DNA of 64,000 bases. Origin: Chytriomyces cf. hyalinus JEL632. Its lineage: Eukaryota; Chytridiomycota; Chytridiomycetes; Chytridiales; Chytriomycetaceae. The DNA lies in assembly GCA_025435555.1 (NCBI GenBank), contig JAIWWG010000078.1, positions 105,104 to 169,103 on the forward strand. Direction: 5' to 3'. Positions 35,932 through 63,563 of this stretch are shown piece after piece. The notes beneath the pieces are model-generated. The model was not told the origin of the DNA. It saw only the letters and a program-made list of their open reading frames with translations, and did not search any database. Position numbers and translations under genes: made by a program. The first letter of the stretch is position 1. Each line of letters opens with the position of its first letter.

Positions 35932-37790
35932 ATGGACACGGCCGTCTCATGGCTGCAGGACCAGCTGCGTGCGCAAATGCGCGAGAATTCGGACAACACT
36001 ATCAAGTACGCGCAGTGTCTCGAGCGCCAGACGCTTGTCCCCCGTCAAATGGAAGCCATGAAAGACGACATTTCCGAGTTGCAAGACCAGATCAGGCTGC
36101 TTGTCAAGCGAGTATCTGAACTGGAGAGCGGTCGTGCTGCGAATCCGAGGCCTTTAAATCCCAATAATGGGAGCGCAATGAATGGTAATCCAAAGACTGT
36201 CACGGATTCTGAAACCGCATATGATGAGCGTATACCACATCCTCCAAAAGAATCCCGTCCGTTAAAGCGTACTTCGACTCCCGATTCGCCAATACCTGAA
36301 AACACTTCTGTCTCTAAAAGGAGACTAACCGCGCCCCCTTCATCCTCTTCATCCTCTGCTTCTTCCCCACGGCCATCCGTCAAAACACCTACCGCAAAGA
36401 CTGCAACTGAAACCCCGCTCCTCTTGGAAAAGTCACGGCCCGACTTGCTTGCCGACGGATCGCCCAATATCAGCGGCTACCGCAGCTGGATCCAAGTCAT
36501 GAAATCATATGACCCGGGGTTTATGGCGAACGCGTCGAATCGGGGCCGGGTGGACTTGTTTCACGCTGCGTTTAATCTTTCGAAAGTGGAAATGAAACCG
36601 CGAAATACCCTCGGGATTCCGGCGAGCCTGCATTCGGAATTTTGCGAGTTTATGAAGTCTGGATGGCGCAAGTACGCAAAGCAGGAAAAGAACCAAATCA
36701 GTCGCAGTTCGCTTGCGAAAGCGGCAGACGCCGAAAAAAAGATCGCCAGTGCGGGTGCTGCGACCGCAGGTGCTGGGAATGGCGCGACTCCTGCGAAGGT
36801 GAGGAGGAAGTCGTCGGTTGTTTCAGCGGAAACCGTTGATTCGGACTTTGAAGACTGCGCCATTGTTGACTCTGGAAATTCTCCCGTTCAAAAAGCATCC
36901 GGCGCGTCCGATGCCAGTCAAAATGGCTATCTTCATGCATCAATTTCATACAATCAGTCCCCGGAAATGAACTCTCTGACACCCAAAAACAAATCCACGG
37001 GCGCCCTTACTCCTGCTCAAAGCAACAGTGCAAATGTGAGTGGTACACACATGTTTACAAACAAACAACTCATACTTTTGGCGCAGACGCATTCAGGCGC
37101 ATCTCCAAGCACACCTTTGCAACACCAGCTTTCACCGGATGTCCCGTCTCATAAATCAGGAACAACAAACACAACTGCCACGCCTAAAAACGATGACTTG
37201 AATAAATGGACTCCATCGCAAAATGGCAACGCCAGTCGTCGTCTGAGCAACGGGTCTACCAAAGGAACCACACCGCGCGAAAACTCTCAGGTCTCGAAAT
37301 CAAATACTCCCGCCCCGCATGAAGAGAGTGTAAATCCAAGAGTTGCTGTTCAAGAAAAAAGTCAAGGACTATCATCAACGACCTTTAAAGAGTTGCCTTC
37401 AGATGGGCACAACAAGGAAACAACTGATAGAATACCAAAAGGGATAAAATATGTCAAGTGAGTGTTGAGCATTTACACTCGCAGATCAGCCCTTTCTAAC
37501 CTCCAAAAACTAGAATCGTTCGTCAAGTTATGCCCGACTACAACGAACTTGACAAAGGCAGCAAGTCCGCGATTCATGCCGGCATCCGAGACTACCTTTT
37601 CGAAGCACTTGGGAACAACGAATCCAGGGCTCTCAAGTGCGTACCGCCCGGCTTCACGCTTGAAACTTCTCAAATGTATTGGATCCCGCAACCCTTGGTT
37701 CCTGATTTTCAGGACTGGCTGTATACGCAGCTTCAAACAATTTTTCCGAAGAGTAATATTGTTAAACCAGCGGCAGCCATCACTGTTTAA
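35932..37790 (+). CDS. FxIP-module family protein A (two modules, coiled coil)
   Basis: Two exons (35932-37457, 37514-37790), 600 residues. N-terminal coiled coil at about 35-70. First module about 180-250: GYRSWIQVMKSYDPGF, then LGIPASLHSEFCEFM. A long Ser/Thr/Asn-rich disordered stretch follows. The second module, 509-590, is coded by its own exon: KIVRQVMPDYNELDKGSKSA, then YWIPQPLVPDFQDWLYTQL. The phase-2 intron lies directly before the IVR motif, as in genes B and G. Basic clusters and Ser/Pro-rich linkers fit a nuclear protein. I know no named domain for the module. It opens the 35.9-46.6 kb cluster. Confidence 0.75.
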
Positions 37791-38286
37791 AACGAATTGG
37801 AAAGAAGGATGATGTCTTTAATTTTTCTTTCTTTTTTTTGGTGTCCGCGGGACACTATATACTGCTGCAAAGTTGGACGAAGAAGAGAGTGTAGAAATAC
37901 GATGCATTGACTGGTGCTGGAATAAATGTACGATTATGTCATGGCATTTTTTGCCTGATGACTTTTGCGCTCGTTGCCTCGCAATTATCTCGGCTGGGGT
38001 TGCTCTGAACACGATATAGACCGGAACGTTAGATGGGTAGCACTGGTGTTTGTAGGCGCTCTCCGCCAGCTGCCAGTCACGCTGTCTGGATCAGCCAATT
38101 TAAATAATTTGCATTGCTTCAGGAATTGAAACTGCATAATCGGGTCAATTGCAAAACACGCGAGAAGATGTGCAAATCCATCACAAAAACGGTCGAAAAG
38201 GGCCGGAGTAAACAGCGCCGTTTGTCAACTTCTGCTCCGAATGCGAATTACAAAGCCCGATAAAAAAAAAAACAATCGAGAGAAAA
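37791..38286. other. Intergenic between family genes A and B
   Basis: Nothing recognised apart from A-rich sequence just before the start of gene B, a trait also seen upstream of gene C. Confidence 0.4.
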
Positions 38287-40489
38287 ATGGAGGAGCTTCA
38301 AGAACCCGACGTCACCATCGACCTCCCAGCAAAGTACATTGCCGTGCTTGAAGAACGGATGCAGCTGGCTGACCAGCTCACTGAAGCGATGAGGGGCCTA
38401 CGCGCTGCCACTGACAAGCTGGAAGCTCTGACGTCCGACTTGACTGGATGCAGACAAGAGGTACTCACGCTGGCGGCGCAGCTGGAGGCTCTGCAGGCAG
38501 ACAGGGCCAAGGAAGTGCAGCTGGACGCGGAGAATAGGGAGCTGCAGCGGCAGGTTACGGCGTTGAAGGCCCAAGGCGCGATGGTGGTGGGCGTGACCAG
38601 AGGTGTGTGTCAGTCAATTTTACTACCTTGTCTGACACCTTGTCTGACAACAAACAAAACAACTTGTTCCTCCATCATACCCACACCCCTTCTTATGCGT
38701 ATTAGAATCAACTGCTGTGAGGAGATCTTCCAGCCGTTTGGATGCCCCCGCTCTTGACAGTTCAGCAAACACAACACCGCAACTAGCAAGATCTTCAAAG
38801 CGACTCAAATTAGCCACAGATAACATGGATGTGGATACTTCATTGTCACACGAAAACGCCACTTTAACCAATCGCAATTTCGTCGGCGAGCTCAATGCAT
38901 CCCATCCGACTCGTCAGTCCCGAACATCGATATCTGCTCTCATGACAGCAGCTGGATCCCCTGTCGCGAGTATTGACGAACATGTGGTCAAAATTGGATC
39001 TGGCTCTTTGCGGATCATCAAATGCAAATACTGCTCGCTGTCAATCTGCGGTGACCATCGCGCCCGGTGGGTTAAACACGTCGGTGGATGCACCTCTGCA
39101 CCGGAATCTACGCGAGCCTTATTCTCCGCGGACTTAATACCGAGCTCCGAAGACATTGCAAAGTCAGAAGCGGCAGAGGATGGGTCGGTGAAGGGTGCGA
39201 GGGAGGGTGACGACCACACGATCGTTTCAGAACCGTGGGACCCAAATGAGCGAGTGATTGACCACCATGTTTTGAAACGAGGTGTCGGTCCTTCGCGCGT
39301 GGTTTCGTGCAGGTACTGCAGTGAGCCTATTCGGTCCAAGGAACGGAAATTGTGGACACGACATGTCGCGGCCTGTCTCAAAGTGCCTGAATCAACCCGC
39401 ATTCTTTTTGGCGGACAGCCTAATGTGGCTGCAGATGCAAGCATGGAGACGCCTTCAGCAGACAATGGAGAATCCATCGCTGATTTGAACCCCGCTCCTT
39501 CTTCTTCCGCAACATTGGCTGCCGAAGAAAGTCCCGTGCATGCCAAAAAAGCACCTGATTCCGCTTCAAAAGTTCCAGTCCAAACTGTTTCAGTCACAGA
39601 GTTGCCTCCGCTGCGTCCATATCCGACGGACCCTCCCAAAACTCTCATGGATGGATCCGAGAACACTCTTCGCTTCCGCGCATGGATGGATATCGTGAGG
39701 TACCAGAAACCTGGCTACGTAATTGTAAACGCAACTGGTCTCAAAATGACAACGTTCAAGAAGCTGTACAATTTCAAAGAGGTGATACTATGAGCGCGTT
39801 AGTAATTATCAATCGCGTTCTCATACTTTTTTTCAAGGTCCGCATGGTCCCGGAGACGAGTACGAGCAAGTTTTCCAACGGGTGTTATGCGATTCCAGAG
39901 TATCTCCAGCAGGCCTTTATGGCCCACTTTAAAGGAGATCCTCGACACGTGATTGTACCAGAAAACCACGAGACTCCATTTGTAGGAGTGCCAGTCAAAA
40001 TAATATCTTCCAACCAGCGCGCATCATCAACAACTCGAGCTGTGGATTTGCAGCCTGTTAGTGCTGAAGAAAATTTGGCCGCTGCTGCCGCAGAGTCCAA
40101 AGACCATCCGAGGAACCCATCTGAAGATACTGAAAAAAATAGTGGTTCCGTGGTGAAACCTCAAGGAACTCGTTACATCAGGTGTGCAGGCTTTTCATAG
40201 AATGCACGCGTGTCATGCAACACACCCACTAAAATATTCGGAATTACACAGCATCATTCGTGGAATAATGCCCGAATTCCAAAGTCTGCCTGACGAAGCA
40301 CGAAAGGCAGTAAAGCGTGGAGTTCGTTTGTTTTTGGAAGCTGAACTTGGAGCCAGCTCATCAGACTGGGTCTTGACGAAGGGTGGAGGGACCATGTACA
40401 TGGTACCTGACAGTCTAGTGGAAACCTTCAAAGAATGGGTGCACGGGGAGTTGTCGCGCTGTTTTCCCGAAATGCAGCTCCGTGTTTGA
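38287..40489 (+). CDS. FxIP-module family protein B (coiled coil, two BED-like fingers, two modules)
   Basis: Four exons (38287-38602, 38706-39781, 39838-40181, 40252-40489), 657 residues. Exon 1 is a coiled coil (about 20-95). Two zinc fingers at 212-233 and 307-328 have the form C-x2-C-x14-H-x3-C with W three residues before the His, each after a D-x-HV-x2-x-G-x-G-x2-R lead-in. First module about 430-500: FRAWMDIVRYQKPGY, then YAIPEYLQQAFMAHF. Second module 579-655: IIRGIMPEFQSLPDEARKAV, then YMVPDSLVETFKEWVHGELS. BED-like fingers suggest DNA binding. It is the fullest architecture in the family. Confidence 0.78.
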
Positions 40490-40592
40490 AAAAGCGTTTG
40501 TGTAAAAAAATAAAAATAAAAAATCCGTTGATAAAAGTTCAAGCAACCCCCCCATAAAAAAAAAAATCCACAGACAGAAAGTACCCGCAAAT

Positions 40593-42091
40593 ATGGAGGT
40601 CGAAGGTCTTGGCGCCAAGCTCGCAATCATGAAGCATAAGCAGATCGAGCTTGAGCAAGAAATAGGACATGTCGAAGACGAGACGGCCCGGGCAAGAGAG
40701 TCACTCGCCGCGGCTGTGGCGTTGGCATCGCAGCTGCGCGAACAAGTCGCCGAACTGCGAACGAGGGTTGGAACGGATGTAGGATCGGAGGGACAGGGTG
40801 CGCAGAAGCTTGCGGTGCTGCAGGCGGAGAATGCCGGGTTGGTGCAGGAGGTGGCGGCGTTGAGGGCTTCACTGGAGACTGGAAGTGAGTGACTTGTATA
40901 TTGAGGCTGGGTGCTATAACTTACGTGCTTGACCGAAGCCGGCGGACCCAAGCGCAGTATCCGGCTGGTGCTGAATCCGAACCCAAACGTTCACATGGAT
41001 GAGTCTGCTGAATCGTCATCGTCGGAGACCGTGAACAAAAAGCAGCGGAGCGATGCGCACGGAACAACTGTCAGTGGTGACGACGATGACGCAATCGATT
41101 CTCATGTGGTGAGGACAGGAAGCGGCTCCTCTCGAAAAGTAAATTGCGTCCATTGCGACGGATTCATCAAGACGGCGCCAGGGTCAGTACCTACCGTATG
41201 TTATCCCCTGTCGATGAGACTACGTGGGCTGATTTTTTATGCAGGTGCGGTCGTAGGGAATGGAGAAGGCATATGCGGGTATGCACCAAGGCACCGGCAG
41301 AAGTTAAAAAGCAATTTGCTACCGACAAAAGCTCAAACTCGAGACGAAGCACAAACGATAGTCAGGAAATAGCCCCTCTAGTAATTCGCAGAAATCCCGC
41401 AGGATTTGCAGTCGTAAAAGATGACGGTTCAAACGGCGATAGTACAATGAAGGAGAATGCGGCAACTCATGGGGAATCCGTATCAGCAACTTCTTTTCCA
41501 TCGAAGGTAACATATCATCATTGTTGGCGTTATTTTCAGAGATTCTCAAAGTTGTTCCAACCCGATGGACTGGATCAGTCACCTCGTGTCACAGCAAGAT
41601 TAAATACCGCTGGAAGCCATCAAAATTCCTTTCCGGATGTGAGCGCAGCAGGGGTCAATTCACGCCATGTGTCTGGAGACAAATCTTCTGCGTTTTCATC
41701 GCCAAAAGTTGCAAACCTGAAAATGCCCAAATCGCCGCTCTTCCAAGAAGTTCACGACATTCAGTTTACTGCCTTGAAGCCGTACGATCATGAACCGCCT
41801 CCGTTCCTGCATGATGGAGCACCCAACACTGAAGGCTATCGATCTTGGAGCGATGTGATAAAGTATCAAATTCCAACACTGCAAGTGTTCAAAGCAACTG
41901 GGCTGAAGGTGACGAGTTTCAAAAGGCTTCATAAGATGCCTGAAATCAAAGTCTCGCCACACGGAACAATACGGGAGAAGCACATGGCTTTTGGGATTCC
42001 GGAGAATATGCAGGCTGCATTTGTCCTCCACGTACTGGGGCGGGACAAGGACAGAGTCCCTGAGTCTATGGACACCGAAATGAAGTTGTGA
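40593..42091 (+). CDS. FxIP-module family protein C (coiled coil, one finger, one module; lacks second module)
   Basis: Three exons (40593-40884, 40939-41182, 41245-42091), 460 residues. Coiled coil in exon 1. One BED-like finger at 167-192 with a 17-residue loop, split by an intron inside the loop. One module at 375-455: GYRSWSDVIKYQIPTL, then FGIPENMQAAFVLHVLG. Gene B continues with a second module in its own exon; here a stop follows and no such exon was found downstream. A 33-nt in-frame GT-AG segment at 41507-41539 may be an optional intron. It follows B in the same orientation, 103 nt after B's stop, so it is probably a tandem duplicate. Confidence 0.7.
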
Positions 42092-42800: not shown

Positions 42801-43286
42801 TTACTCGCCACCACTCACAGCATGCAAATCCCACATCTCCTGAGCGCTAAAATGCGAGAACGGGCTTCCCATCCACGAAAGCAGCATTTCAAAGCACCTT
42901 GGAGGCACTGCATCGCTTATCGCAAACGGCCGGCTTTCAACACGTACCTTGGCCAACTTCATGAGTCGATGGAACTTTCTGAACCGGCTGACTTCGTTGT
43001 GAATCGCCGATGGACCCGCGGAATAGAAGGGATACCGCGCTCGCATGACTTCGGTCCATGCCCGGTATCCTTCAATGTTTTGCCTTGTTTCAACAGTTTT
43101 CGTGGCCAGGTCCTCGATTCGTATTGTTGGTGGCGGCGGTGTGTCAAAGCTTAAGGGTCCAGGTTTTGGCGTGAAGCGGGCGAGGTACTCTTCCTCTTGT
43201 TGGCTCGAAGTAGCAGGTGTTTCTGATTGGTAGGGGCCGCGCTTGTTGCTGGGAAGGGCCTTCTTTCTGTCTCGAGGCATGTTCAT
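42801..43286 (-). CDS. FxIP-module family protein D (solo module)
   Basis: Single exon, 161 residues from ATG 43286 (MNMPRDRKKALPSNKRG); the frame above starts with GTG. A basic, proline-rich N-terminus leads to one module: GYRAWTEVMRARYPFY, then FAISDAVPPRCFEMLLSW, where the usual IP is replaced by IS. No coiled coil, finger or second module. A GTACGT...AG segment within the module could be read as an intron, but removing it would delete conserved positions. It is either a minimal member or a decaying copy; the absence of internal stops favours a working gene. Confidence 0.6.
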   Translation of the reverse strand: MNMPRDRKKALPSNKRGPYQSETPATSSQQEEEYLARFTPKPGPLSFDTPPPPTIRIEDLATKTVETRQNIEGYRAWTEVMRARYPFYSAGPSAIHNEVSRFRKFHRLMKLAKVRVESRPFAISDAVPPRCFEMLLSWMGSPFSHFSAQEMWDLHAVSGGE

Positions 43287-43628: not shown

Positions 43629-45077
43629 CTAAAGCAAAGAAGAGGAATCATAAACTAATGGAAAAAGCGGTGTGGGCACATTTGTACCCATAGAAGGCGT
43701 AGCGATAGCGAGTCCTGCTCCATGCATCCCAGCTGCCGGGGCAGAGTTTACAGACGCGACAGCGTTTTCAGAAATGACCTCTTCTTCGTCAAGCTCATCA
43801 TCATCCGAGGAGGAATCATCCTCGTCCGAGCCGTCCAGGTCATTGTCATCTGACGCTTCGGCAACGGCAGCCATAACAGAATTTACAGTTGCATCGTCCA
43901 GGTCCATCGCTTGTGACGTTCCGTGGTTCGATACCATGTTGTGTTGCATCATTAGTCCTTGGCTGCTATCCAGTCCCCTTGTGGTTCCATCCATACCAAT
44001 TGAGACGAGGCACGCCGCAGGGGTTAAGCTGCACCCAATAACATGCTTTTCCCACTTGTTTTTGCTTGAACTCGCAAATGTGACACCACAGTACTTACAC
44101 AAAACGAGCCGAGTTGTGCCCTTTCCTTCCTTAATTACGTGCAAATCAACAGGCCCCACAAGCTGCTTCATCTCTGTTGCCATACCAAGAACCATATTAT
44201 CCTTGTCCAACCGCTTGCCATCATCAAGAGCATTCGCAGCGGCAGCAGCAATCGCCGAAGCCGCCAAAGACGAATCCACTCTTCTCCTCCTGCCTCCACC
44301 TTCGGGGTGCGCCACTGCTCCAATGCCTTCATCCAAGCACCTCAAAAACTCGGGATGGAGCCTTTCCGGCAGCGCAAAACTCGCACGAAGCCTCTTACCC
44401 GGAGCAGCCTCGTCGATTTGAAACTGAGCCCTCAAAATCACGTCATCCGTCAGGTTGTGAAAAGTTTTGAAGGTGAGGAGCTTGGACTGGGCAGTCTCAA
44501 TGGCCATGTTGGGACGCAGATAGCGAACGACATCCATCCATGAGCGATAGTACAGCGTATTCAGGGAACCATCACGAAGCTGAGCGGGCGGCGGATGTGG
44601 GTAACCGAGAGAGTTTGGATACGTGGCAATGAGGTTTGCAATTTCCTGCGGAGAAGGGGACGTTTGGGAGTTTGGTGTGGGTGTTCCAGGGGCATGGAAA
44701 CTTTTCCGTTTTTTGACGCCGGACGGTGTAGGCAAAGCTTCTGAAGAAGGAGAGGGCACAAATGATGCGTTCAGGTCTGAAGAAGCAACAGCAAGTTGTG
44801 TTTGTTTTGATGCAATTTTTGAGGCGGAAGATTTGTCCACCAGTGCTGCTTGGAGGGCGGCCTGCAGCTCTTCCTTGTCCTTCTCGAGAGCAGCGACCCT
44901 CGCTTGAAGCAGGTCGATGAGGGCAGCGGGGTCGGTGGAGGGCTGGGAGTCGGGGGCCAGAAGGTGGGTAGTAGTCGTGGATAAGGTGGAGTGGGGTGCG
45001 GTATCGAGGGTCTTGTCGGTGTGGGTTGCAGACACGGGCTCTGTGGTCGTCGCTGGTTCGGTTTCACTCGCCATCAT
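43629..45077 (-). CDS. FxIP-module family protein E (coiled coil, module, then finger)
   Basis: Single exon, 482 residues. Coiled coil about 50-85. Module about 176-255: YYRSWMDVVRYLRPNM, then FALPERLHPEFLRCLDEG. The BED-like finger comes after the module at 327-349 (C-x2-C-x14-H-x3-C, KWEKHVIGC), reversing the order in B and C, with the same lead-in DLHVIKEGKGTTR. Downstream is a strongly acidic Ser/Asp/Glu tract near 400-440. No second module. The intronless structure contrasts with the split family genes on the plus strand. Confidence 0.72.
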   Translation of the reverse strand: MMASETEPATTTEPVSATHTDKTLDTAPHSTLSTTTTHLLAPDSQPSTDPAALIDLLQARVAALEKDKEELQAALQAALVDKSSASKIASKQTQLAVASSDLNASFVPSPSSEALPTPSGVKKRKSFHAPGTPTPNSQTSPSPQEIANLIATYPNSLGYPHPPPAQLRDGSLNTLYYRSWMDVVRYLRPNMAIETAQSKLLTFKTFHNLTDDVILRAQFQIDEAAPGKRLRASFALPERLHPEFLRCLDEGIGAVAHPEGGGRRRRVDSSLAASAIAAAAANALDDGKRLDKDNMVLGMATEMKQLVGPVDLHVIKEGKGTTRLVLCKYCGVTFASSSKNKWEKHVIGCSLTPAACLVSIGMDGTTRGLDSSQGLMMQHNMVSNHGTSQAMDLDDATVNSVMAAVAEASDDNDLDGSDEDDSSSDDDELDEEEVISENAVASVNSAPAAGMHGAGLAIATPSMGTNVPTPLFPLVYDSSSLL

Positions 45078-45542: not shown

Positions 45543-46601
45543 TTACGCAGCAGCCGCCGCAACAGGTTCAGATTCAGGACATTTCGACTCCGAATCGCTG
45601 CCCTTATCTGTATCCTCCGGCTCAAAGTGAGTGACTTCCTGCTGATAATCCGGAGCCTGCATCCTTGCCTTCTTTTGGACCAACCCTCCCTCTTGTTTAA
45701 CATCTGTGCCGGCGGTGCGTTTCACAGTCGAAGAGGAGGATTCCAAGTTCAGCCTGAACCTTGCATGGGTTTCTGATTGCCGAGATTCATTTAATTGACT
45801 TGACTCGCCGTATGGATAAGGGGACGAAGCTGGATCTTCACGAATTCTTGGGCTGGATGGATGGCTTTCAAAACCATCGTTTTGCTGTTCCTGCCTTTTC
45901 CTGTCACTGAAGCGCGTCTTGCTTCGTGTGGAGGACGATCCTCCTGATCGATAAAGTGGAATTCGATCGCTCTGTTTATGCTCTCTGGCCTCCATATCCG
46001 ATTCGAAACCACTCTCGCTGTGTTCGCCTTCATTCTCATTGTTGGCATGCTCGCCATTTGCCGTCGCATAGTTCTTTAGAGTTTCCTCCATGAATTGCTT
46101 AAATTCGTCCACAAGATCGAATGGAATCTTGGTTGCCTTGCAGCCAGGTCCATTTTTTTTCAGATTGTTCAGATGGAGAAATTCGAAAGCACGTTGGCAG
46201 ACAACGCGCGAGTCAGTTGTTCCGTTTGACTTGAACTCTGAGAACCGCTCCCTTACAATGGCAGTCCAGGGTATTCCTGTGGCATCTGGCTCTGAAGTTG
46301 CGGGAGAGACTGTTTGCATTTTCTGAGGCTTTCTCACGGACTGAGGAGCTGTTACTGGGATGGCATGCATGGTTGATGATCGGCGGTGTGAATGGGATGA
46401 GGAGGCATAGTTTCGGCCAACGGCAATGTTGCTTGTTGGTTGACAGCCCTTCTGCAAGGCCTCTATCCTTTCATTTGTTGCTGTTCGTTCGTTCATGAGA
46501 GTTTCCCGCATGTCAGCAACTTGTTGTGTGGCACTCGCGAGCTGTTTTGAAAGGGAAAGACACTCTTCAAGAGCTTCGTAGTACTTGGTTCTCCAACCCA
46601 T
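45543..46601 (-). CDS. FxIP-module family protein F (coiled coil plus one module)
   Basis: Single exon, 352 residues. N-terminal coiled coil at about 5-50 (YYEALEECLSLSKQL). One module at about 110-190: IPWTAIVRERFSEFKS, then TKIPFDLVDEFKQFMEETLK. The rest is charged and low in complexity and ends in an Ala run. No finger and no second module. It is the most divergent member, recognised mainly by the W-x2-IVRxRF start and IP-x2-L-x3-F end. Confidence 0.62.
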   Translation of the reverse strand: MGWRTKYYEALEECLSLSKQLASATQQVADMRETLMNERTATNERIEALQKGCQPTSNIAVGRNYASSSHSHRRSSTMHAIPVTAPQSVRKPQKMQTVSPATSEPDATGIPWTAIVRERFSEFKSNGTTDSRVVCQRAFEFLHLNNLKKNGPGCKATKIPFDLVDEFKQFMEETLKNYATANGEHANNENEGEHSESGFESDMEAREHKQSDRIPLYRSGGSSSTRSKTRFSDRKRQEQQNDGFESHPSSPRIREDPASSPYPYGESSQLNESRQSETHARFRLNLESSSSTVKRTAGTDVKQEGGLVQKKARMQAPDYQQEVTHFEPEDTDKGSDSESKCPESEPVAAAAA

Positions 46602-47560
46602 GTTGTGGGTGTTGGATATGTTTGCGGTTTAAAACAAAAAAACTTTACACAGGGTTTCTGCAGCAGAAACCCTGTGTATTTTCGCTTTGCCATGTCCTTA
46701 AGACTTGATGAAGAGGTTCATAACAATCGAACGCGAGCTTGCTCTTGGCACTCATGCCCCTCTTCGCCAATTCTCATAAACACACCCAGGTATTTCTCGC
46801 ACCAAGCCTTCTAGTTTGTGCACGAAGAAAGAGCAAACTGGGGTCTCTGCGAACTGAAAGTCCTGCAAAGCGTGCCGCGCAAAATTAGTTTTTGATGTCG
46901 CGGAACAAGAAGTTTGGCGACGCTTGATAACATGTGCATTTCGGGAAAACTGCGAGCATCTGTCAATGTCGGGCGTGATCAAGGGGCACGAGCACGCGTT
47001 TTCCTCACGTTCGATTTCATGAGTTTTGGCGCGTGTACGGTTTGCATTCACGCGTTTGTGCTCGATTGATGTCTTCACCAAACTTTCCAAAACACGTCCA
47101 GCAATTTACAGCATAACTGCATAGTATACCAGCCATACATTACCCCATGCCACCCACCCTTCCGTGCAAAAAGCCTGCAAACCTTTTAAAAAAAAGAAAA
47201 CGAAAAGAAACGAAAAATATCTGTAAAATAAAAACAACAATAAAAAAAAAGCCGTAAAACCCGCCGTCCCTACCGCCGCACCTCAAGTACTAACGCCGTT
47301 TCTTGTCTTCAGTTCATCGTCTCACTCCGATCGCCCTGTGTTTGACCTGGTGAGTGCGCGCTGTTCCTGTCGTTTTGTTTTGCATAAACAATTTTTGGTT
47401 GGTCTTGGGCGATTTTCCTTTACAAATCCTTGTCTGCGTCTGTCTTTCGCTCTTTCGCCCCACGCATCCCCATTTCATTGCACCGTGCCTCCCCATAACC
47501 ACACTAACCTGATACTAAAAAATAAAAAGTAGAAAAAACAAACTGAAAATACGATCAAAA
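46602..47560. other. Intergenic; divergent promoters and one perfect hairpin
   Basis: Between divergent gene F and the AT-hook gene. Apart from the inverted repeat annotated separately, the segment near 47190-47260 is A-rich. A minus-strand frame at 47090-46752 has no domain and was not accepted. Confidence 0.4.
46647..46677. repeat. Perfect 14-bp inverted repeat with 3-nt loop
   Basis: Arms 46647-46660 and 46664-46677 (ACACAGGGTTTCTG and its complement) surround CAG. The stem lies 46 nt upstream of the ATG of gene F. It could be a 5'-leader hairpin, a regulatory site, or the relic of a small inverted-repeat element. Confidence 0.85.
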
Positions 47561-48529
47561 ATGTCTACCGCGCGAAGAACAGCAGCACCAGAAACCGCAG
47601 CCACAAAAACAGAAGAGGAATTGAACGAATTAGTCGAGTCTAACGATGGCGCAGAGTCAGTTGACGTGCCCGCAAAACGCGGCCGCGGGCGGCCCAGAAA
47701 GGACCCATCCATCACCGTTGCCGCTCTTAAAAAACTAAACGGTCCCATTCGGCCACGTGGTCGCCCCAAGAAAACGTATAGCCCTGAGGAATTGGCCGAG
47801 CGGGAAGCTTTGAAAAAGGCGCAAGGGTCTGGCAGAGGCAGAGGGCGTCCCAGGAAAGAGGACATGGGTATGGAGCAGTTGGTGGAGATAGATGCGGCGA
47901 AGGCTGCCCGACTGGCTGCTCTGGCGCAGAAAAAGAAGGATGTGAAAAAGAAAAGAGAAAATGAGGAAAAGGGCGATGTGAGCACGGATGCAGAAAAAGA
48001 AGACGAGGAAATCGCCACATTGAGCGACGCGGAAGGTACTGCAGAAAATGAAGATGAGAGTGATGCGGTCAAAGCAAGAGAAGGTGAAGAGGTCAGTGAC
48101 GAAACCGGTGGAGAAGAAACGGGTGCGGAAAGCGATGGGGGAGCATTTACTTTAAAAGGAAATGGGGGAGTCAAAAGACCACGTAGTAGACCACCGTCTA
48201 AAGCGCGTGCTGAGATTGCGAATGATGCTTCCAAAAGACCTCGGGGCAGACCACCCAAAAAGCCGAAAACCGATGAGGAAGCTCCAGACGCTGCACCCAG
48301 AAAACGCGGTAGACCTTCAGCAAAAAAGGGTGAAGAAACCGAAGATGGCGGGGAATCTTCTGCTGCAGAAGATGCAAAGAAAAATGCTTCAGAGTCTCCG
48401 AAACGCGGCCGTGGCCGGCCCCCGAAAGTGAAGGAATCCAACGACGCAGTTGCCACAAAATCTTCCCCACCCAAAAGAACCCGAGGAGCACCCCCCAAGG
48501 ATTCCGTGGCGGCTGCCGCGGATGTTTGA
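47561..48529 (+). CDS. Multi-AT-hook (HMGA-like) chromatin protein
   Basis: Single exon, 322 residues, highly charged. At least six AT-hooks are visible: KRGRGRPRK, RPRGRPKK, RGRGRPRK, KRPRGRPPKK, KRGRPSAKK and KRGRGRPPK, with degenerate hooks KRPRSRPPSK and KRTRGAPPK. Acidic stretches lie between them. Such proteins bind the minor groove of AT-rich DNA and shape chromatin or transcription. The opposite strand is also open for over 400 codons because of base composition; that frame is not a gene. Confidence 0.88.
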   Translation: MSTARRTAAPETAATKTEEELNELVESNDGAESVDVPAKRGRGRPRKDPSITVAALKKLNGPIRPRGRPKKTYSPEELAEREALKKAQGSGRGRGRPRKEDMGMEQLVEIDAAKAARLAALAQKKKDVKKKRENEEKGDVSTDAEKEDEEIATLSDAEGTAENEDESDAVKAREGEEVSDETGGEETGAESDGGAFTLKGNGGVKRPRSRPPSKARAEIANDASKRPRGRPPKKPKTDEEAPDAAPRKRGRPSAKKGEETEDGGESSAAEDAKKNASESPKRGRGRPPKVKESNDAVATKSSPPKRTRGAPPKDSVAAAADV

Positions 48530-51533: not shown

Positions 51534-54281
51534 ATGAGCATGGATGATGTCACAGCAACCCATGCTATCGAGCCCCATCAAGAGGACCTCGAGCACATTC
51601 GAAATACCTCAACCGCCACACTCTCGTCAATGCTGACTCCGCCGCTGAGTCTGACTTTGTTGCTGCTCGATGTGACCCGTGAGTCCACAGCACCACTTCC
51701 GCTCGCACGCCGCATCCGCTCCCTCGTCACCTTGCGTCGAAGCCTGCTTCAAACTGCCTCCGCAGAGGAATTTCTGTCTCAGTCCATGATCCACTCGTCA
51801 CACACATCGCCAATATCTGACTCTTCGAATGTGGGCAACGACTTTGCGAGGGTTGAAATCACTGTTTCGCAACATCAAATGCATATCGATGACGGGGAAG
51901 AATTTGTTTCGGATGACAACTTTGACTATGTCGATGCCCTGTTAAACAGCTCATGCGACTTGGCCGATGATCCTGAACTACTTGCAGACTCGCACTTTGA
52001 GAAGAGATTCCTGCATCCTGTGGTGCGTGCCGTATTTTTATTTTGGTGCTTTTTTCGCCGTCTTCTATCTTTGTTTGTTTCTTATCTAAACTTTCATTCC
52101 AGCCTGGCAGCGCTCCAATTCGGGTGATCATTCTTGACGAAGACGGGAGATCAAACGGATTCGCCGCAAGTTTATCCCTGCATCTTGATCATATCACGAA
52201 AGGTTCCTGCCACTTTTTTTTTTTTTTTGACCGGAACTCACAAGTCAACTTTTCAGCCTCAAACATGCCCCATGCTGTATCTTACCTAAGCGGAGGAATC
52301 GAAGCGTTACAAGTTGCATCTCCATGGCTATTCGACGCTGCCCGAGTGATTCCAACCAACACATTAGGGCCTGATGAGATAGCCACAACCACATTTGATT
52401 CAGCTTTCCTTGGGTGGGGGGATGAAGCATGCGAACAGTACGAATTCCCTGTACCTCTGGCAGTGAATATCCCATCGTTTCATGTGCAAGATACAGACAA
52501 CCAGATGGCTGCGGTATCTGCAGACGCAGATATCTCCATGACGGAACAAGAATCCACTAGTACGACCGAATGCGAAGATGAAAGCGACAGTGATGATACG
52601 GACGCATTGGGGAGCACGATCGAATCTTGCATGGTTGATAGTGGGATTGATCTTGATCTCTCAGAAAACCTGAAAACCGATGACCTATTGGAATGCGCAA
52701 CAGAAGCGAACATTGACATTGGAGCCGATACAGCGGCGGCACCGCGAACAAAATCGAATTCGACTGCCACTACAGCGAATTGTTCAGACTTTTCATTGAA
52801 TTTGGACGCTCAGTTCCGTGCAGCGCAAACCGTGCGCAATGACTCTATTCTCCCATCGATTCTCAAGCATCCCCAAGTTCATTTCAAGCATTTGTCGAAA
52901 TCAAACAGTCCAACACACGATTTGCGAATGCTTCAGCAGCATTTAATTGCTTCCGTGTGGTATGGAAAGCGGAATCCCGAGGGGGATATCGCTGTGCCCA
53001 TCTTGCATCCGCTCGCAAAAGAACCCTCAACTTCTCAGTCTTCATCAAGGCAATTGCCTGCCCAACCTCAACGATCCAACCCTCCTCGAACGTCCGCAAT
53101 TGAAACAACGCAAATTGCAGACTTTCTGCATTTGAGCAGTTGTTACGCCGCCGCAGACCCAGTCGAACTCAAAAAAAGAAACATTCGCCATGTTGTGCGC
53201 CTTGGATGGGGCTTTGAAGTTTTTCAAAATAGCTCAATGAAGCAAAGGAACAATGAATCATTTATTGACGACCCCGAATGTCTGGATTCAGGAGACTGGA
53301 GCTGCTGGGAGAGTGACCAAGAAGATCACCATGGTCAAAACCATGGCGCGAGCGCTCTTAATGGAGTTCGAGAAAGTATCATGTTTTTCCAGAGTCTGGC
53401 AAGCGGCGTCGGAATTGAAAGCGAATTGTCAAAACTGCTGACGGAAATTGAGTCGAAAAGAGAAAGCGATAAACCACCTAAGCTTACAACTCAAGAGCGG
53501 GCGCGCATTCGAAAACTCATGGGAGGAAACTGGCGTCGTGTTGGTGGCGCTGATGCGGGCATGAATCAAAAGTACAACTCGTGGCGCGTTAAAATGTATG
53601 ATTTCCCAATCGAAGACACCCCTGCAGCGCCTATCCGTTGGATTCTCGAAAAATGTTGTGAAGTGTTGGAAGCGGCACGCGTGTTGGGGGAAAACGTTCT
53701 TGTGCATTGCCATGCGGGTGTGAGTCGGAGTAGTACGATTGTTTTGGCGTATTTGATGCGCTGGCGACGGTTTACTTTGTATGAGAGTTGGTTGTTGACG
53801 TACAAGGTGAGCCTTTTTCGGCGAACGATATTCCAAAGAAAAAACTGTAATACTAACGTCCTATGTTCCTTCACCCGATTGAAATCAAAAGGCGCGTCCC
53901 ATCATTCGACCTAACGAAGGATTTTCGCGCGCTTTACAAGAGTTGGAATACGAAATGCATCCGCATCTCAAAGAATCGACAATGCCAATCTTTTGGATGT
54001 CCGACAGCTACACAAACTTTCTTGAAATTCTGGAGGTCCAAGAACGCTTGTGGCGATGGCAGTGCAAAGACCGGCCAGTGGAAGCAGCAGCAGCGGAAAA
54101 GAGTAATCTCTCGGTAGGAACTGTTCGCAAAAGCAGTTTTATTTCGGAATTGGTTGCCGCTGGACCGGTGACTGCTGAAGAAGAGGCTGCTGTTACCGGC
54201 GAATCGGGTGGTCAAACGGGAGGCAGGCTTTCTGTGAAAGGTCGTGGGCGTGGGCTTAGTTTTGGAGGAAGAGCAGGATAG
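51534..54281 (+). CDS. Dual-specificity protein phosphatase with long N-terminal region
   Basis: Four exons (51534-52022, 52103-52202, 52257-53806, 53892-54281), 842 residues. The catalytic P-loop LVHCHAGVSRSSTIVLAYLM places the nucleophile at Cys681 and the Arg six residues on. The fourth exon supplies ARPIIRPNEGFSRALQELE, the usual DSP continuation. Conserved upstream pieces are ADFLHLSSCYAAADP and the IRHVVRLGWGFEV strand. Residues 1-300 include a stretch (APIRVIILDEDG, then SYLSGGIEAL) reminiscent of the rhodanese-like docking domain of MAP-kinase phosphatases. A basic ARIRKLMGGNWRRVGG insert sits inside the domain. The substrate is unknown. Confidence 0.85.
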
Positions 54282-54832: not shown

Positions 54833-57170
54833 TCACTGCGACGTTGAGCCAGGGTCATCCGTCACGGGTTCCTGATCAGTCGCTTCATAGTGACCTTGCT
54901 GTTGTTGCTGGTACTGTTGGTGTTGTTTCTGTTGCTGCTGCTGCTGCTGCTGCAAATCCCCCATTCGAACCCCCAATCCAAAAGAGTTGAGAATGTCTTG
55001 ATGCGATTGACCATTTGGTTGCTGCTCGTGCTGCTGTTGCGTAACTTGAGAGGTTTGTTGAAGAGGTTGTGGAGGCAGTGGCTGCTGCTGCTGCGGTTGA
55101 TAAAGACTTTGGTCTCCGCTGTGCTGCGATGACTGCTGCGAAGAAGATGCGTAGTCTGGCTGATAATGGCTTTGGTCAATGACTCCCAAGTGATGCTGCT
55201 GTTGCTGCTGCTGCTGGTGACCCATTTGCGACTGCTGCTGTTGCTGAGGCTGTGGCTGTTGCTGATGGTGCTGCTGCTGCTCAGGAATGTGCTGATGCTG
55301 CTGAGGATTATATGGTTGAGAGACTGACGATGCACCCATAATTGGTAACGGTTGGTAAGAATGAATTGGAGGTCCAGAACTGCTGCCAGCAGACAAACCA
55401 GCCAACCTGTCCGGCATACTACTGTTTCCCATGTACGCAGCTGCAGGATTCACTCCCGCCACTCCGCCTGGATACGCGTACACACTTTGCCCTCCATATG
55501 CATCTCGAGAATCATACATCTGCTGACGTCGATGCTGTTGCTGCTGTTGCTGTTGTTGCTGCTGCGGTGGTTGATGCTGGAATTGCTGTTGCTGGTGTGA
55601 ATTCTGGACATGTTGTTGCTGTGAGTCATATGGTCGGTATTGCATCTGTTGCTGGTGTTGGCCTGGCGCAGAAACCGGCGCTCCCATGTGTTGTACCACT
55701 TGCTCATGTGGATGCTGCTGACCCACTTCAGGCGGAGTTACGATACATCCGCTCAACCATTTATCTCCCGTCACGACTTCGGCCAGAGCACCCTTCATGA
55801 CTTCACTTTCATAACCTCCACCACCAGTACCCACACCATCCACACCGCCTCCAGCCAGAACGGTAAACAAGGGAACGGATGTGCCTTGTGAGTTTTCTGT
55901 AAAATCGCTGCACTGAATCCAGTTAAGGTTGGGCGGCAACTGCATATAAAACCTTGGGGGGATGGGTGCCAAACCAAACGTGACTGCCGTCACAACCATA
56001 TCTGCACCACCTTCGCCGGTTGAGTAGTGTCGGTCCTCCACCGTGATGCTGCTCACGCTGTCAAACGGGATTTCAATCCGAAACTGACCACCTCCACTCG
56101 TGATGGTAATGTAAAGCTGGCGATGCAAGGGGTCCATGTGCATTTGCAAATCGGGAGTTGGATCCATTGTTTGAGTGAGAGGGGTTAAGGTGCGTCGCCA
56201 TGACCCCCAAAGCAATGTGTCAATGGGGATTGCATGCATTTTTGGGGGACCGCCTGGACCCACGGACATGTTAGCTTGCGGAACACTCGATTGATGATGA
56301 AACATTTGTTGTTGTTGTTGTTGTTGTTGTTGCTGTTGTTGTTGTTGTTGCGGTGGGTATCCATTCGACATTGAGCCGGCGCCGTTTTGGTAAGGCGGCA
56401 TCATCGAGTTGGGTGGTGTTGGAAGTAATTCAATAGCGCTTGTGGGACCGTTTTGATTCCCGTAAACTGCGGGGGTTGGCTTGTATTTGGGTGCACCGCG
56501 TCTGGGTGGATTTGAGGGGGTGGGTTTGGGTGAGCCGCCTTCGGTAGAGTCTGGTTTTTTGGGGTAGTATGTCCCCTGCTTTCGGCCCCGTTTGCTGACC
56601 GTGTTAATGACCTGGAGTGCGGCTGTGTCGTTTGGGTTTATTTGGGCCCCATTTCGTTCGGCAAGACGGATTCTGGCTCTTCGGTTTTGGAACTGGAAGC
56701 AGAGTCATTTTAAATAAGAAGTAAATAAGAAGTAAAATAAAGAAGTAAAATAGAGACATAAATAAAACATTAAATGATTAAAAGTTAAAATTTTAGAAGG
56801 TCTCTGTTTCACACTTTTTTTTTGCACTCACCCAGATCTGGACAGAGCGCGGAGTCATGCCGCACTTGACTGCGAGCAGCTTGCGTGTAGCTGAGTCAGG
56901 GTTCGGGTTCATTGAGAAGGCGTCGTCGAGAGCGGCGATTTGAGCGACGGAGGCACGCTTGCGTTTGTTCATGGACCGGGTGTCGTCGTCGTCGTCGTTG
57001 TCGTCGTCGCTGTTGTTGTTGATGTCGTTGTTGTTGTTGGGGTTGCTGTTTGCGCTGGTTGCAGCGGGGTTTGCGCTGTTGGAGAAGTGGTTCTGGGTGT
57101 GAATCTGCGGGTGAGCGTCCGTCTGCGGCTGTGTCTGGACAGGCCCGTGCATGAGATTATGTCCGAACAT
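54833..57170 (-). CDS. Poly-Q homeobox transcription factor (Phx1-like)
   Basis: Two exons (57170-56832, 56692-54833), 732 residues. An Asn/Asp-rich N-terminus precedes a homeodomain at about 68-123 (NKRKRASVAQIAALDDAF, then SVQIWFQNRRARIRL across the intron), with the invariant W-F-x-N-x-R recognition helix. A second conserved block at about 320-470 (LLWGSWRRTLTPL, QFRIEIPFDSVSSITVED, PRFYMQLPP) resembles the region downstream of the homeodomain in fungal Phx1-type regulators. The C-terminal third is dominated by glutamine runs. The frame is open to 57191 but begins with GTG, so ATG 57170 is used. Likely nuclear regulator of development or stress. Confidence 0.87.
54900..56350 (-). repeat. 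CAG/CAA triplet tracts coding poly-glutamine
   Basis: Many clustered CAG/CAA runs in the homeobox gene. The longest, near 56305-56350, encodes about 15 Gln. They are prone to length change and create open antisense poly-Leu frames. Confidence 0.9.
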
Positions 57171-58490: not shown

Positions 58491-60627
58491 ATGCAAACAC
58501 CGGCAACTCCATCATCCGCTCTCGACCCAATCAAGCTTCACACAGCTTCCGGGTCCGATCCGGCATCCGCCAGCTTCGCAGACAAGTATCGCACGGCCCT
58601 CCATCAGCAGGCATTGCTGGCGGCCAAGCTTGCCGCCGCAGAAACAACAGCGAACCAACTCGTGCTCGATCTGAGGCGTGTCAAAGCTGAAGCAGACACG
58701 CTTCGTGCCTTGGTCGTAGCTTCGGGCGTGCCGGCGGCCCTTGCAAGGCTGCCACCAATCACCCCGCTGTCTGGATTTGTAGGGACCCACACGGACTTGC
58801 AGAACGCATCCTCGCTTGCACTCAATCCTCCGTCCGAAACCTTTGTCGACGCTTCTCTCGGTCTTCTCCCGTCACGTGAAGGTGCGTGTTCCCCACAGTG
58901 ACGCCCTTAAAATCAGCGTTATCTGCCCCGTCAGCGCTGTCCCCGCCCCTGAGAACACATGGCAGAGTTACTGGCGCTCTCCTGTCAGATTTCGCAGCTG
59001 CGGTTGTGTCTCTGACTTTGCCTAGTTCGGTTGCGCAGCTTGTCAGATTTATTCGTGTCTCACGCCCTTCATTCCCCGCCATTCCCTGGAACACTCTGAC
59101 GTCGCTCTCGTCCTTCTTCTCTACCTTCTTTCTTCTCATTTCTCGCTCTCTCTTCTTCCCCTTTTTTCTCTGCCGCAAACGCGGACTCAATGTTCACCTT
59201 TTCGTTGAACGTGACCAAGCAAAGCACCTCCAAAAATTTTCTCCATCTCTGCTAAAAATTTGCCACGTGTCCCAAACACGAACCCCTTGTCTCCATTCCC
59301 ATACAACTTGTTGAACGCGTCGCTGAGATTTCTGAACCATCTACACAGAAGACGAATACACCGAACCTCCCTCCCGACGCGGTGGAAGTCGATCAAGCCC
59401 TATAGTGGCTGTCTCTACGACATACGATGCTACAAAGCCCATTCCCTCTCCGCAATCAATGACCCAAAGCCCGATTGTGCCTAAACGCGAAATAAGCTCC
59501 AGCAACGAAAGTGACACCCATTCCGCTGAACCGAATCGCCGCACAAGCACTTCCAGCACAACCACGTCTGTGTCCAACGCGGCCAATACCACCGCCACCA
59601 CTGCCACACATTCAGTCAAGCGATCCAACAACCCCGTCAGTACCAGCCACATGCATGACCACACCGACAACCCGCTCCCCGCCAACAGCCTCGCATGGAC
59701 CGACATTATCCGCATGCGCTACCCAAACTTCCAACGAAGCACCGTGCAAACATCAAAACACGCGCGCGAGTTTATCGAAACGAGGCAGATTCCCTTCTTT
59801 CGTGTCACACCCACGCACAGTCTTGGACGCAGTAAACCCACCTACGCGATCCCTCCCGAAATGCAGAAACCCTTTTTGGATTACTTTGAGGAAAAGTTTT
59901 CGGGGACTGGTGTTTTGGGGCGACGGAGGCCTGGTGGCGATGTGTTTGCGGGCATGCCAGGATACGATGATTCTTTCCCAGATATCGAACCAGACACAGC
60001 TGCGACAGAAGACAAGAATTCACAAGCCGGATCCCGTGAAGTTGGAGAAGGACAACCAAAAAGTGCATCGTCCGGCGTAAAGCGGAAGGCTCCGGCTAAA
60101 AGGACCGTTTCCAAGAGCGAAACCCGCAAAAACTCAGTCTCCCCAGATGCTGACCGCGCGACAGCCACTGAAGATGCCGAGTCTTCTGAGGCCGCTGCAA
60201 AAAAACTGAAGACTACTTCTTCATCAAAAGCAGTGAGTAAAAGCGGATACATTCTGACCCGATACAATACGTCAGTGCCTTTTTTTTTTCCATGCTCTCT
60301 TTTGCAATACTGACGTCGCTAGATTTATTTTCTCTCGTCAGCATTGTCAACCGCATGATGCCAGATTTCAAAACTTTGTCGAACGAGGCACGTGTCGCCA
60401 TCAAAAAGGGCGTGAAACAATTTCTGCTGCATCAATTGGGCGCCACGTTTGATGAATGCATTATGATGACCCCCACCGAAAACTCTGGCCAAACGAGCGC
60501 GGCGCCGAAGCAAACATACGGTGTCCCCGAGCACCTGATTCCTGGATTCCAGCAATGGGTATACGTTGAACTGAAAAAGTGTTTCCCTGATTTGGTTGTG
60601 CTGGATCCAAAGGCCGCCGCTGCTTAA
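58491..60627 (+). CDS. FxIP-module family protein G (coiled coil, two modules)
   Basis: Three exons (58491-58881, 59349-60270, 60342-60627), 532 residues. Alanine-rich coiled coil at about 30-80. First module about 244-315: LAWTDIIRMRYPNFQR, then YAIPPEMQKPFLDYFEEKF. A basic Lys/Ser linker (VKRKAPAKRTVSK) looks like a nuclear localisation signal. Second module 438-525, in its own exon after a phase-2 intron as in A and B: IVNRMMPDFKTLSNEARVAI, then YGVPEHLIPGFQQWVYVELK. The first intron, 467 nt, is the longest in the window and may hide another exon. No BED-like finger. Confidence 0.75.
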
Positions 60628-61210
60628 AAACAAAAACAAGCGGTATGCAGTATATGTTATTATACGCTCATTTTTATATTCCTATATCACTGCTATTATT
60701 TTTCCCCCCGACCCTCCTCCTTTTCCTTCCCCGTGCAGGTTGTTGTTTTCGCAGGGCTATTTTTCTTTACATATCCATTGATTACACATACACACACACT
60801 GTAGCCGATGACCTGGCTGTTTTACTTCTTTTGTTGTTTCTTTTTTTTGCTCGCCCTTATTTCTCAATGTTTCTGTGAGTATACACTTGTTGCCTGGCTG
60901 GGAGACCTTCTTTTGTATGATTATTGTTTTTTAACTTTTTTTTTGTTTGGAATAAACCTGAAAGAGAAGTAGAGATTGGTATTTTTTTGGGTAGATCTGG
61001 TACCAGTGGAAGTGGTGTGGAAGCGGATCGAAGGTCAAAGAAGGTATCGGGGCACTGTGTCGTCATTTGAAGATAATAAATGCGTTGATGCGCTTTATTT
61101 GGTTGCTGTGTGACATGCTGATGAAAGCATCCACAAACATACACACCACCACATAGAAAAAAAGAAAAAAAAAAAACACTTCAAAATCCGCAAATCCGCA
61201 AAATGACAGC
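60628..61210. other. Intergenic between convergent family genes G and H
   Basis: T-rich and A-rich 3' flanks; no gene recognised. A short CA run at 60785-60799 is present. Confidence 0.4.
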
Positions 61211-63563
61211 TCATTGGTCAAGAATCACCTTGTCAGGAAAACATCTTCGAAGTTCGTCTACTGCCCAGGCTCTAAATCCAGAGAGCAAGTCGTCAGGGAC
61301 GCCGTAAGTGTGATGTTCCGCGCCTTCAAGAGTGAACATGCATTCATGAAATCGGTCGCCCATTCCTTGCTGTAGAAAGAGTTTGACTCCTCGCTTCACT
61401 GCAATACGCGCGTCGCGAGATAGAGATTTGAAGTCGGGCATAATTTTGACGAGAATCCTGAATAGCATATCGAAATACTCAAAAAAAACAATCCGACAGA
61501 AAAGGATCAAATACTTACGCGTTATATTTTGTAAGCTGCAGTCCTGATGCGCTGTGATATATATTTTGCTGATTTTGCTCCAAAGATTCTTGGCGAGCGA
61601 CTACAGGCACTTGAGCAGGAGCAATTTCGTCTTCCTGCATTTTCGCCTTTTTGCTTGAAACCTGGGGATCGGTGCTGGCTGGCGGATCCACAGACATTTC
61701 CTCACTTTTTCGAGACACCTTGTCACGCGGCGTCGCTGCTGGCTCTACACTGGCTAGCTGCGGTTCAGGGGCAGAGGTCGGCTCTTGAAAATGGCGAATC
61801 ATTGCATTTTCGAACCATTTCCGCAAATCTTTCACAAGAGGCTCAGGAACACTGAACCCAGTCGGTGTGTCAACCATTTGCAGCCCAGCACTTTCGCATT
61901 TTGCTTTGACAAACGCATGCGTCTGATTTCGAACGCGAAGCAGGAGTTTTGTGGCTTTCGCATGCTCAGCGAGATAGAGTCTTTGGTCATCGTTCAAAGC
62001 AGATTTCCAGTCTCTATCCGCAAGAAGAGATGTGGCTGCTTCTGTACTCACTTTGTCTTTGGAGATGTAGTCAGATGTACGACGTTCTCTCGCACGGTTG
62101 CTCACGGGCATAACTTCATCCTCCGATAAATTATTTTCAGATTTCTCAGAGCTTGACGCAGACCATGTCCCAGAACGTGACGGAACACGAAGAGAGGTAT
62201 TTCTTTTTTTTTTTTTTATCACATCCGAAAATGAGAAGAGTTTAGCTTCCACTGGGTCTCAATTTTTTTCGTAATTCTTTTTTTTTACTCACCCGCCATC
62301 TTGGATTTCGCTGCCTTCATCCTCTTCATCCTCTTCGTTCTCATCGTCTTCATCAACAGTATTCGATTTTGGGTCATTGGCTTTTGCATGGCTGCCATGC
62401 ATTTTGGCGTTGCCAAACATGCCGTTTTTGAGAAAGTGGGATTCCATGTATGTTAAAAACTCAAGATGATGCCGAGCGGGCATGCCGAATGCTGGTTTGT
62501 GGCTATTTTCACCAGTGACGGAGCTTAAAAGAACGCGTTTCATACTGTGCTTCTCCTAAAGTGAGGAAGCACAGTCAACATAGAGTTGAGATTTGCGGCT
62601 CAGATCAAGAGGGGACTGGGGCACACTTACAAGGTACTGTGATGCGATTCTACACATGTGTGAGCTGGTGCGATTAAAAGTTGGATATCGTCCCCGAATC
62701 ACATCAACCCAAGTTCGATACCCACTCTTATTGCTCAAGCCACCATAAAGAAGTGCAGCTGGCGGTGCAGTGAACACAAGACCCGAATCCGCTTCCAGTT
62801 GAGCAATCGACGATGCAGTATCAACCGAGGCCGACGGCTGCTTTGCCTTTGCACTAGCAGTGGAGAATGAATCTTCATCGGGTAATTCGGGGGACATGGA
62901 CATTGAGGCTGGAGCGTGAGTTATAGTTTGCTGTGAGGCAGGCGCTGATCTTCTCCTTTTGTTGCTCATTGAAAATTCATCCATCTTCGAGACCTGCTCC
63001 ATTTTGTTCACGAGCCAATCATTGAATGGTGGCAATAAATCTGCAGGGATGCCATAGAATGAGTTTGATCCGACGGATGAATAGATAAGACAAGTCGTTG
63101 CTGCTTCACTGCCAAGTCGCGGAATCAGGTAATCCTTGAGCACAATAGCGTCAATAAGACTCCGCTGGTGCTGACGCAAATGCGAGATCTGGCCGGGATA
63201 CAACTTGCGGAAAATGAGGTGCCAGGGAGTCAGGCTAGGCGGTTGCGCCTTTGGGGCCGGGTTGGCGACAGTGTTGGCTTCCAAGTTGGAAGCAGGGTTC
63301 GACTCCACTTTCGAATCTGGCTTCGCATCCAGGTTTGAATCCACCACATCCTGCTCCAGCGCTACAATTTCCATTCGTGGCGCCGCATGCAGCGCAATGC
63401 CCGCAGCCGTGCACGCGTGCCGCAGCAGTGCAACTCTACTCGCAAGCACCGCTGCTTCCCCGCGCAGAGCAAGCGCCTTTGTCTCGGCGTGACGCTGCTG
63501 CTCTACGCACTGGAGACGCTGCTCCAGCGAGTGCATGTACTTGCTCTTGTATGTGCTTTCCAT
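61211..63563 (-). CDS. FxIP-module family protein H (four modules)
   Basis: Four exons (63563-62631, 62555-62293, 62202-61519, 61457-61211), 708 residues. Coiled coil at about 5-50, then four copies of the module. Their end motifs are FYGIPADLLPPFNDWL (about 170-190), AFGMPARHHLEFLTYM (about 330-346), GFSVPEPLVKDLRKWF (about 505-520) and TYGVPDDLLSGFRAWAVDEL (about 680-700). The second begins GYRTWVDVIRGRYPTF; the last begins KIMPDFKSLSRDARIAV and, as in A, B and G, is coded by its own exon after a phase-2 intron. Acidic and basic linkers separate them. This gene is the best evidence that the two module types are one repeated unit. Confidence 0.72.

Follow-up and report, generated by a model that had tools for sequence, protein, structure and literature searches.

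The window analysed here, i.e. the whole stretch of 64,000 bases taken from contig JAIWWG010000078.1 of the chytrid Chytriomyces cf. hyalinus JEL632 (49% G+C, no N), carries eight genes, G1 to G8, which were modelled with GT-AG introns and share a module of about 70-95 residues. The genes lie on both strands, as an earlier note on this DNA had claimed, with four on each, and they are most likely nuclear regulators of one locally expanded paralogous family with one to four module copies each. The modules, delimited by hand on the spliced proteins with the regions read in the three frames of the coding strand, amount to 13 copies, the one in G6 being marginal, and one doubtful copy, the third of G8. 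Two copies are found in G1, G2 and G7, one in G3, G4, G5 and G6, and four in G8; the variation among genes described previously is therefore confirmed, but the exact counts had to be amended, as the four copies of G8 include the doubtful one and the single copy of G6 is marginal.

Two types of module are distinguished below, an internal (N) type and a C-terminal (C) type. G1 (35932..37790, plus strand, 600 residues, exons 35932-37457 and 37514-37790) comprises a putative N-terminal coiled coil, an N-type module (36439..36678, detected by the module profile and by leave-one-out profiles), a long Ser/Thr/Asn-rich stretch and, in the last exon, a C-type module whose main part lies at 37514..37786 and whose first residues are encoded 5' of a phase-2 intron (37458-37513). 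G2 (38287..40489, plus strand, 657 residues, exons 38287-38602, 38706-39781, 39838-40181 and 40252-40489) has a putative coiled coil, two C2HC fingers (38972..39091, a pattern match with no zf-BED match, and 39257..39376, a pattern match with no family match), an N-type module (39632..39951) split by the intron 39782-39837 and a C-type module (40252..40486) with its first residues 5' of the phase-2 intron 40182-40251. In G3 (40593..42091, plus strand, 460 residues, exons 40593-40884, 40939-41182 and 41245-42091) a putative coiled coil is followed by one C2HC finger (41094..41284), which was recognised by eye in the spliced model, is split by the intron 41183-41244 and has no family match, and by an N-type module (41795..42052, again detected by both kinds of profile). 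Three genes on the minus strand consist of one exon each: G4 (42801..43280, 159 residues) with an N-type module at 42849-43106 and no convincing coiled coil, G5 (43629..45077, 482 residues) with a putative coiled coil, an N-type module at 44313-44591, a C2HC finger at 44031-44150 (pattern match) and an acidic tail, and G6 (45543..46601, 352 residues) with a weak coiled coil and one module at 46065-46298, marginal at an expectation value (E) of 0.009. G7 (58491..60627, plus strand, 532 residues, exons 58491-58881, 59349-60270 and 60342-60627) combines a putative coiled coil with an N-type module (59693-59908) and a C-type module (60342-60600). G8 (61211..63563, minus strand, 691 residues, exons 63563-62631, 62555-62293, 62151-61519 and 61457-61211) carries its modules at 62991-63230, 62424-62762 (the second, containing an intron), 61764-62027 (the third, doubtful) and 61223-61457 (C-type).

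A hidden Markov model of the module picked up 15 six-frame pieces at E <= 6e-6, all of them in G1-G8, the next piece in the 64 kb following at E 0.15. Such a test within the window is circular, therefore it was repeated with each gene held out in turn. All eight held-out genes yielded a module, with best-domain E of 3e-8 for G1, 1.3e-11 for G2, 1e-5 for G3, 1.1e-5 for G4, 3.8e-5 for G5, 0.009 for G6, 3.4e-12 for G7 and 2.5e-10 for G8, while 2,000 shuffles in each run reached at best E 0.18 to 0.91. The claim that eight genes at these positions share a module is thus borne out, and the possibility of unrelated regions or chance similarity is rejected on the leave-one-out recovery together with the group profiles and the profile-profile link between the N and C types described below.

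Group N consists of the internal copies of G1, G2, G3, G4, G5 and G7 and of the second copy of G8, and group C of the C-terminal copies of G1, G2, G7 and G8, to which the first copy of G8 also belongs (matched by a C-only profile at E 7e-6, tree support 95/90). Most other forks of the module tree are weak, and the third copy of G8 and the copies of G4 and G6 stand on long branches. Modules of group N start with 'W-x-D-V-x-R-x3-P', whereas group C is without this Trp, and the start motif W-x2-V/I-x-R/K proposed earlier for the whole family holds for the internal copies but not for the C-terminal ones. A profile of six N modules of the YRSW type matches the internal module of G7 at E 6e-10. When the complete N and C modules were compared with hhalign, E was 1.2e-4 with a probability of 55% over 64 collinear columns, and none of 200 column shuffles was as good; with G6 added the values were E 4.3e-5 and 69% (0/100 shuffles), and without the first copy of G8 E 0.0013 and 18% (0/100 shuffles).

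Some results have to be set against a single family of this extent. Profiles built without G8 missed its third copy (E 5) and found its first one marginally (E 0.011), and the modules of G6 and the third of G8 are weakly supported. Furthermore, profile-to-sequence search does not join N and C, the N-only profile reaching at best E 0.39-0.47 on C copies where shuffles reached 0.064, and a first comparison of profiles, in which the C modules were truncated, covered only 21 columns at a probability of 6%. N and C are taken as one family on the profile comparisons, with the doubt that the failed profile-to-sequence link brings.

A phase-2 intron occupies the identical place in all four C-type modules of G1, G2, G7 and G8, where the codon just before the same Ile is split. 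The modules are 30-49% identical as protein, codon position 3 is the most divergent in each of seven module pairs compared, and 14-23 of the 24-40 identical residues per module pair use different codons. The excess at third positions in all seven pairs suggests selection on the protein, and the module genes are apparently old paralogs under selection. The ancestral gene probably possessed an internal module and a C-terminal module behind the phase-2 intron, and the two clusters would have arisen by duplication, some copies losing their C-terminal module. The same data bear on the idea that the cluster consists of mobile-element genes or of remnants of a recently copied element. The C2HC fingers do resemble transposase fingers, and a weak Tc5-transposase finger score (E 0.009, below the cut-off) was obtained for one finger of four; nevertheless, the introns are ordinary GT-AG introns with a conserved position, the identity of the modules and their third-position excess in the seven pairs speak against it, no transposase domain was found above the cut-off by Pfam in the eight proteins, and no shared DNA repeats of at least 25 bases were found in 35-64 kb beyond low-complexity runs (shorter terminal repeats would escape). 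Having neither shared flanks of this length nor a transposase domain above the cut-off, a mobile origin was rejected as most improbable.

Known families were searched at several levels. For the eight whole proteins (E <= 1) Pfam gave no family above the cut-off, the best scores being mostly coiled-coil families or chance. For a set of 12 single modules the best E was 0.044 in Pfam and 0.085 in PHROGs, each family being matched in one module of the 12, and NCBIfam gave no match. The sequences of the PDB, searched with all modules, yielded none at E <= 10, and searched with the C modules 25 matches, none of them significant. The earlier note knew no named domain with this pattern, and its view agrees with the absence of any significant match in Pfam, NCBIfam, PHROGs and PDB sequences. 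Pattern scans of viral contigs gave 21 matches for the C alignment and 10 for the N alignment, and a scan of prokaryotic genome contigs, made with the C alignment only, gave 37; no relative was confirmed among them.

The fold was predicted by AlphaFold2 from a set of 12 modules, which includes the doubtful third copy of G8 and excludes the N module of G2 and the second copy of G8, both split by introns. For the C module of G7 the predicted local distance difference test score (pLDDT) was 89.4 and the predicted template modelling score (pTM) 0.75, with helices at residues 2-5, 14-39, 63-80 and 89-93 and strands at 40-43 and 56-59. For the internal module of G7 they were 80.3 and 0.69, with helices at 15-22, 31-43 and 68-83, a strand at 63-66 and two-residue bridges at 13-14 and 50-51. 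The module is accordingly predicted to be an ordered domain of the order helix-helix-beta hairpin-helix, and disorder of these regions, which the earlier note had named as grounds for dropping its proposal, is not what the models display. Foldseek against the PDB gave nothing at E <= 0.001 among the 50 matches listed per model (of 121 and 132 at E <= 10), nor did it against viral models, searched with the internal module only, among the 50 matches listed of 244. No known fold was significantly matched, but this does not establish a new fold. Winged-helix proteins (FOXK1, PadR, MarR) are among the matches listed for the internal model, all non-significant, and such a small helix-helix-hairpin-helix domain can be a diverged winged-helix or KilA-N-like fold.

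One such possibility is that the module is a strongly diverged form of the KilA-N/APSES domain, with which Mbp1 and SBF, cell-cycle factors of fungi, bind DNA. On this reading a short strand and two helices would be followed by the hairpin of a wing, and the third helix would come after an aromatic-x-V/I-P turn. Both domains are small, and the internal model of G7 has the same predicted order strand-helix-helix-hairpin-helix, with an aromatic residue and a proline before the last helix. Mbp1 (1bm8) was ranked 27th by Foldseek for this model (E 3.2, template modelling score (TM) 0.39), and three of the 50 viral matches listed of 244 bear the names KilA-N, Kila N-family or N1R/p28-like, all non-significant; N1R/p28 carries KilA-N. 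The motif 'Y-x-V-P-x2-L-x3-F-x2-W' of the C modules aligns with 'G-T-W-x-H-P-x-I-A-x2-L-A-x-W' of KilA-N, and hhalign of the C modules gave E 0.012 (0/60 shuffles) with a smaller KilA-N set and E 0.021 (0/100) with a larger one, for which 37 phage sequences were picked by hand, one was dropped for an in-frame stop, Mbp1 and PCG2 were added, and 24 of the 38 were kept at below 75% identity. The agreement does not extend to other module sets, however: with the larger set E was 0.089 (7/100) for C and three others, 0.15 (6/100) for all 14 and 0.25 (22/100) for N, and with the smaller one 0.10 (6/60) for C and three others, 0.18 (8/150) for all and 0.85 for a reversed alignment. The probability stayed below 4% in every run, in contrast to the control pair of phage KilA-N and APSES (95.6%, E 1e-8). 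Pfam PF04383 matches none of the eight proteins and none of the 12 modules, although it matches the controls Mbp1 (1e-13) and phage KilA-N (4e-22). The N-A/L-T of helix A and the G-T-W before helix C, conserved in most KilA-N relatives aligned, are absent from the modules. Two of the viral proteins that reach a TM above 0.5 to the internal model were traced, one to Gordonia phage GMA3 by its protein length and one to Nodularia phage kac65v161 by protein length and product. Neither matches KilA-N in Pfam, and one of the two falls in a phage excisionase/regulator family that shows weak matches to anti-repressors. Without a profile match, these signatures or a significant fold match, and with its best E of 0.012 at such a probability and inconsistent among module sets, membership in KilA-N/APSES was rejected, and a diverged form of it is considered unlikely.

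A histone-fold-like domain of the NF-YB type, serving for pairing or chromatin contacts, was weighed in the same way. The four C-type modules rank NF-YB first among PDB sequences (E 0.11), and the two are in register over helix 1, over a loop of seven residues that begins with Pro and over the beginning of the long helix 2. In hhalign five histone-fold sequences gave E 0.037 with the C modules (1/60 and 1/100 shuffles) and E 0.014 with C and three more modules (0/60), but E 0.21 (1/60) with all 14 and E 0.10 over a single column (3/100) with the N modules. The likeness to NF-YB is non-significant and confined to the first half of the module, in both predicted models hairpin strands take the place of the short loop 2 of the histone fold (NF-YB/CBF), and neither model has a histone among its 50 listed PDB matches, though many histones are in the PDB. 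Membership in the histone fold, with no significant sequence or fold match, a best hhalign E of 0.014 at a probability below 4% and inconsistency among module sets, was thus rejected, and the reading as a whole appears very unlikely.

Outside the module, coiled coils were assessed with a simple custom heptad score over the N-terminal 130 residues and 500 shuffles per protein. The score was reached by 0 shuffles in G1, 2 in G2, 1 in G3 and 1 in G7, by 8 in G5 and 16 in G6, and by 25 in G4 and 27 in G8. This is suggestive of coiled coils, with a strong signal for G1, G2, G3 and G7, a weaker one for G5, G6 and G8 and no convincing one for G4, so that the coiled coils reported earlier hold for most of the genes but not for G4. 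The four C2HC fingers (two in G2, one each in G3 and G5) all have C-x2-C followed by H-x4-C. BED fingers have the spacing C-x2-C ... H-x3-5-[HC], and this is present in three of the four by pattern in unspliced frames, where one unrelated frame matched too, and in the fourth, that of G3, by eye in the spliced model. Despite this common spacing, none matched Pfam zf-BED at E <= 10 (most matches above about 0.1 are removed by the filters of the tool), and the earlier description as BED-like was given up in favour of C2HC.

The net charge summed over the 14 modules is +20 in helix 1, +38 in the middle block and -12 in helix 3, as computed without a control, the basic parts being apparently helix 1 in both types and the middle block in the N type; helix 3 is amphipathic and slightly acidic. 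The cluster K-[KR]-x-[KR] occurs in six of the eight proteins, at summed shuffle rates of about 2.6. Nuclear proteins bound to DNA or chromatin are suggested by the pairing coil, the basic N-type modules, the C2HC fingers of three genes and the basic clusters, and a nuclear DNA-binding role is plausible but unproven. From its charge and topology the module is a candidate DNA-binding domain, with an even chance of being one. The layout calls to mind MADF-BESS and BEN proteins, which are expanded families of animal coiled-coil proteins with a small DNA-binding domain; a pairing helix, a repeated small domain, basic linkers and local clusters are common to them, but neither MADF nor BEN was reported by Pfam in the proteins or the modules, and a BEN-like reading was rejected.

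Several observations weigh against a DNA-binding module. A middle block of at least +3 is found in only 8 of the 14 modules, and in the four C-type modules its charge is -1 to +1. The basic cluster is absent from G1 and G4 and exceeds the shuffles individually only in G5. Both AlphaFold2 runs were made on the same 12 modules with slightly different ends, therefore they are not independent. The main rival is a protein-protein interaction module, which would explain the same features: G1-G8 would be coiled-coil scaffolds with a repeated domain that binds proteins and not DNA. It would be in keeping with the amphipathic character of the third helix and its conserved Leu, Phe and Trp, with the modest charge of the module, near zero in the C type, and with linkers rich in Ser, Thr, Pro, Asn, Gln and Gly, but the basic middle block of most N-type modules, the C2HC fingers in three genes and the basic clusters speak against it. 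This rival is rather doubtful.

If the module is a DNA-binding domain, the N-terminal coiled coil would pair two chains (in G4 the heptads are not convincing), the module would contact DNA via the basic helix 1 and the hairpin, the C2HC finger of G2, G3 and G5 may add a contact, and the long Ser/Thr/Pro-rich or acidic linkers could recruit partners. The fullest form of this proposal, an undescribed DNA-binding domain family with its own helix-helix-hairpin-helix fold that expanded as clustered regulators in one early-diverging fungal branch, is tentative and, taken in all its parts, on the doubtful side. No paper on such a family was found in the literature, which is a weak negative as it covers open-licence papers only and a domain with no name offers no search term. 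A review on fungal regulators (PMC5415576) is based on listed InterPro domains. Catalogues of the regulators of early-diverging fungi are built on domains that have models, and a domain lacking one escapes such counts; if the module binds DNA, regulators of these fungi that are so far hidden become accessible to searches with the module alignment. Were it a diverged KilA-N, it would add a chapter to the history of the SBF/APSES regulators, whose origin has been proposed to be viral (PMC4862756).

Several neighbours of the module genes were recognised in the window. Between the two module clusters lies an AT-hook protein (47519-48526, plus strand, Pfam AT_hook 7.6e-6), and a dual-specificity phosphatase is found at 52001-53914 (plus strand, Pfam DSPc 9e-16). 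A homeodomain-like gene (54833-57000, minus strand) was seen by eye as an exon with '...TPRSVQIW', an intron and then 'FQNRRAR', with long Gln/His-rich stretches, the downstream exon alone being without a Pfam match. At 28010-30561 (minus strand) three adjacent open frames resemble one another in the spacing of their cysteines and in ends rich in Ser, Thr and Ala, and by eye they look like secreted proteins of a second set of local paralogs; the first and third have no Pfam match. Further neighbours are a ferritin-like protein with a long Gly/Ser/Glu-rich tail (25649-27181, minus strand, Pfam Ferritin_2 1.7e-27), a GATA zinc-finger factor (9611-10396, plus strand, Pfam GATA 1.6e-7) and a tubulin gene. 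The host is a eukaryote, and the introns and the homeodomain-like, GATA, AT-hook and tubulin neighbours fit a fungal one.

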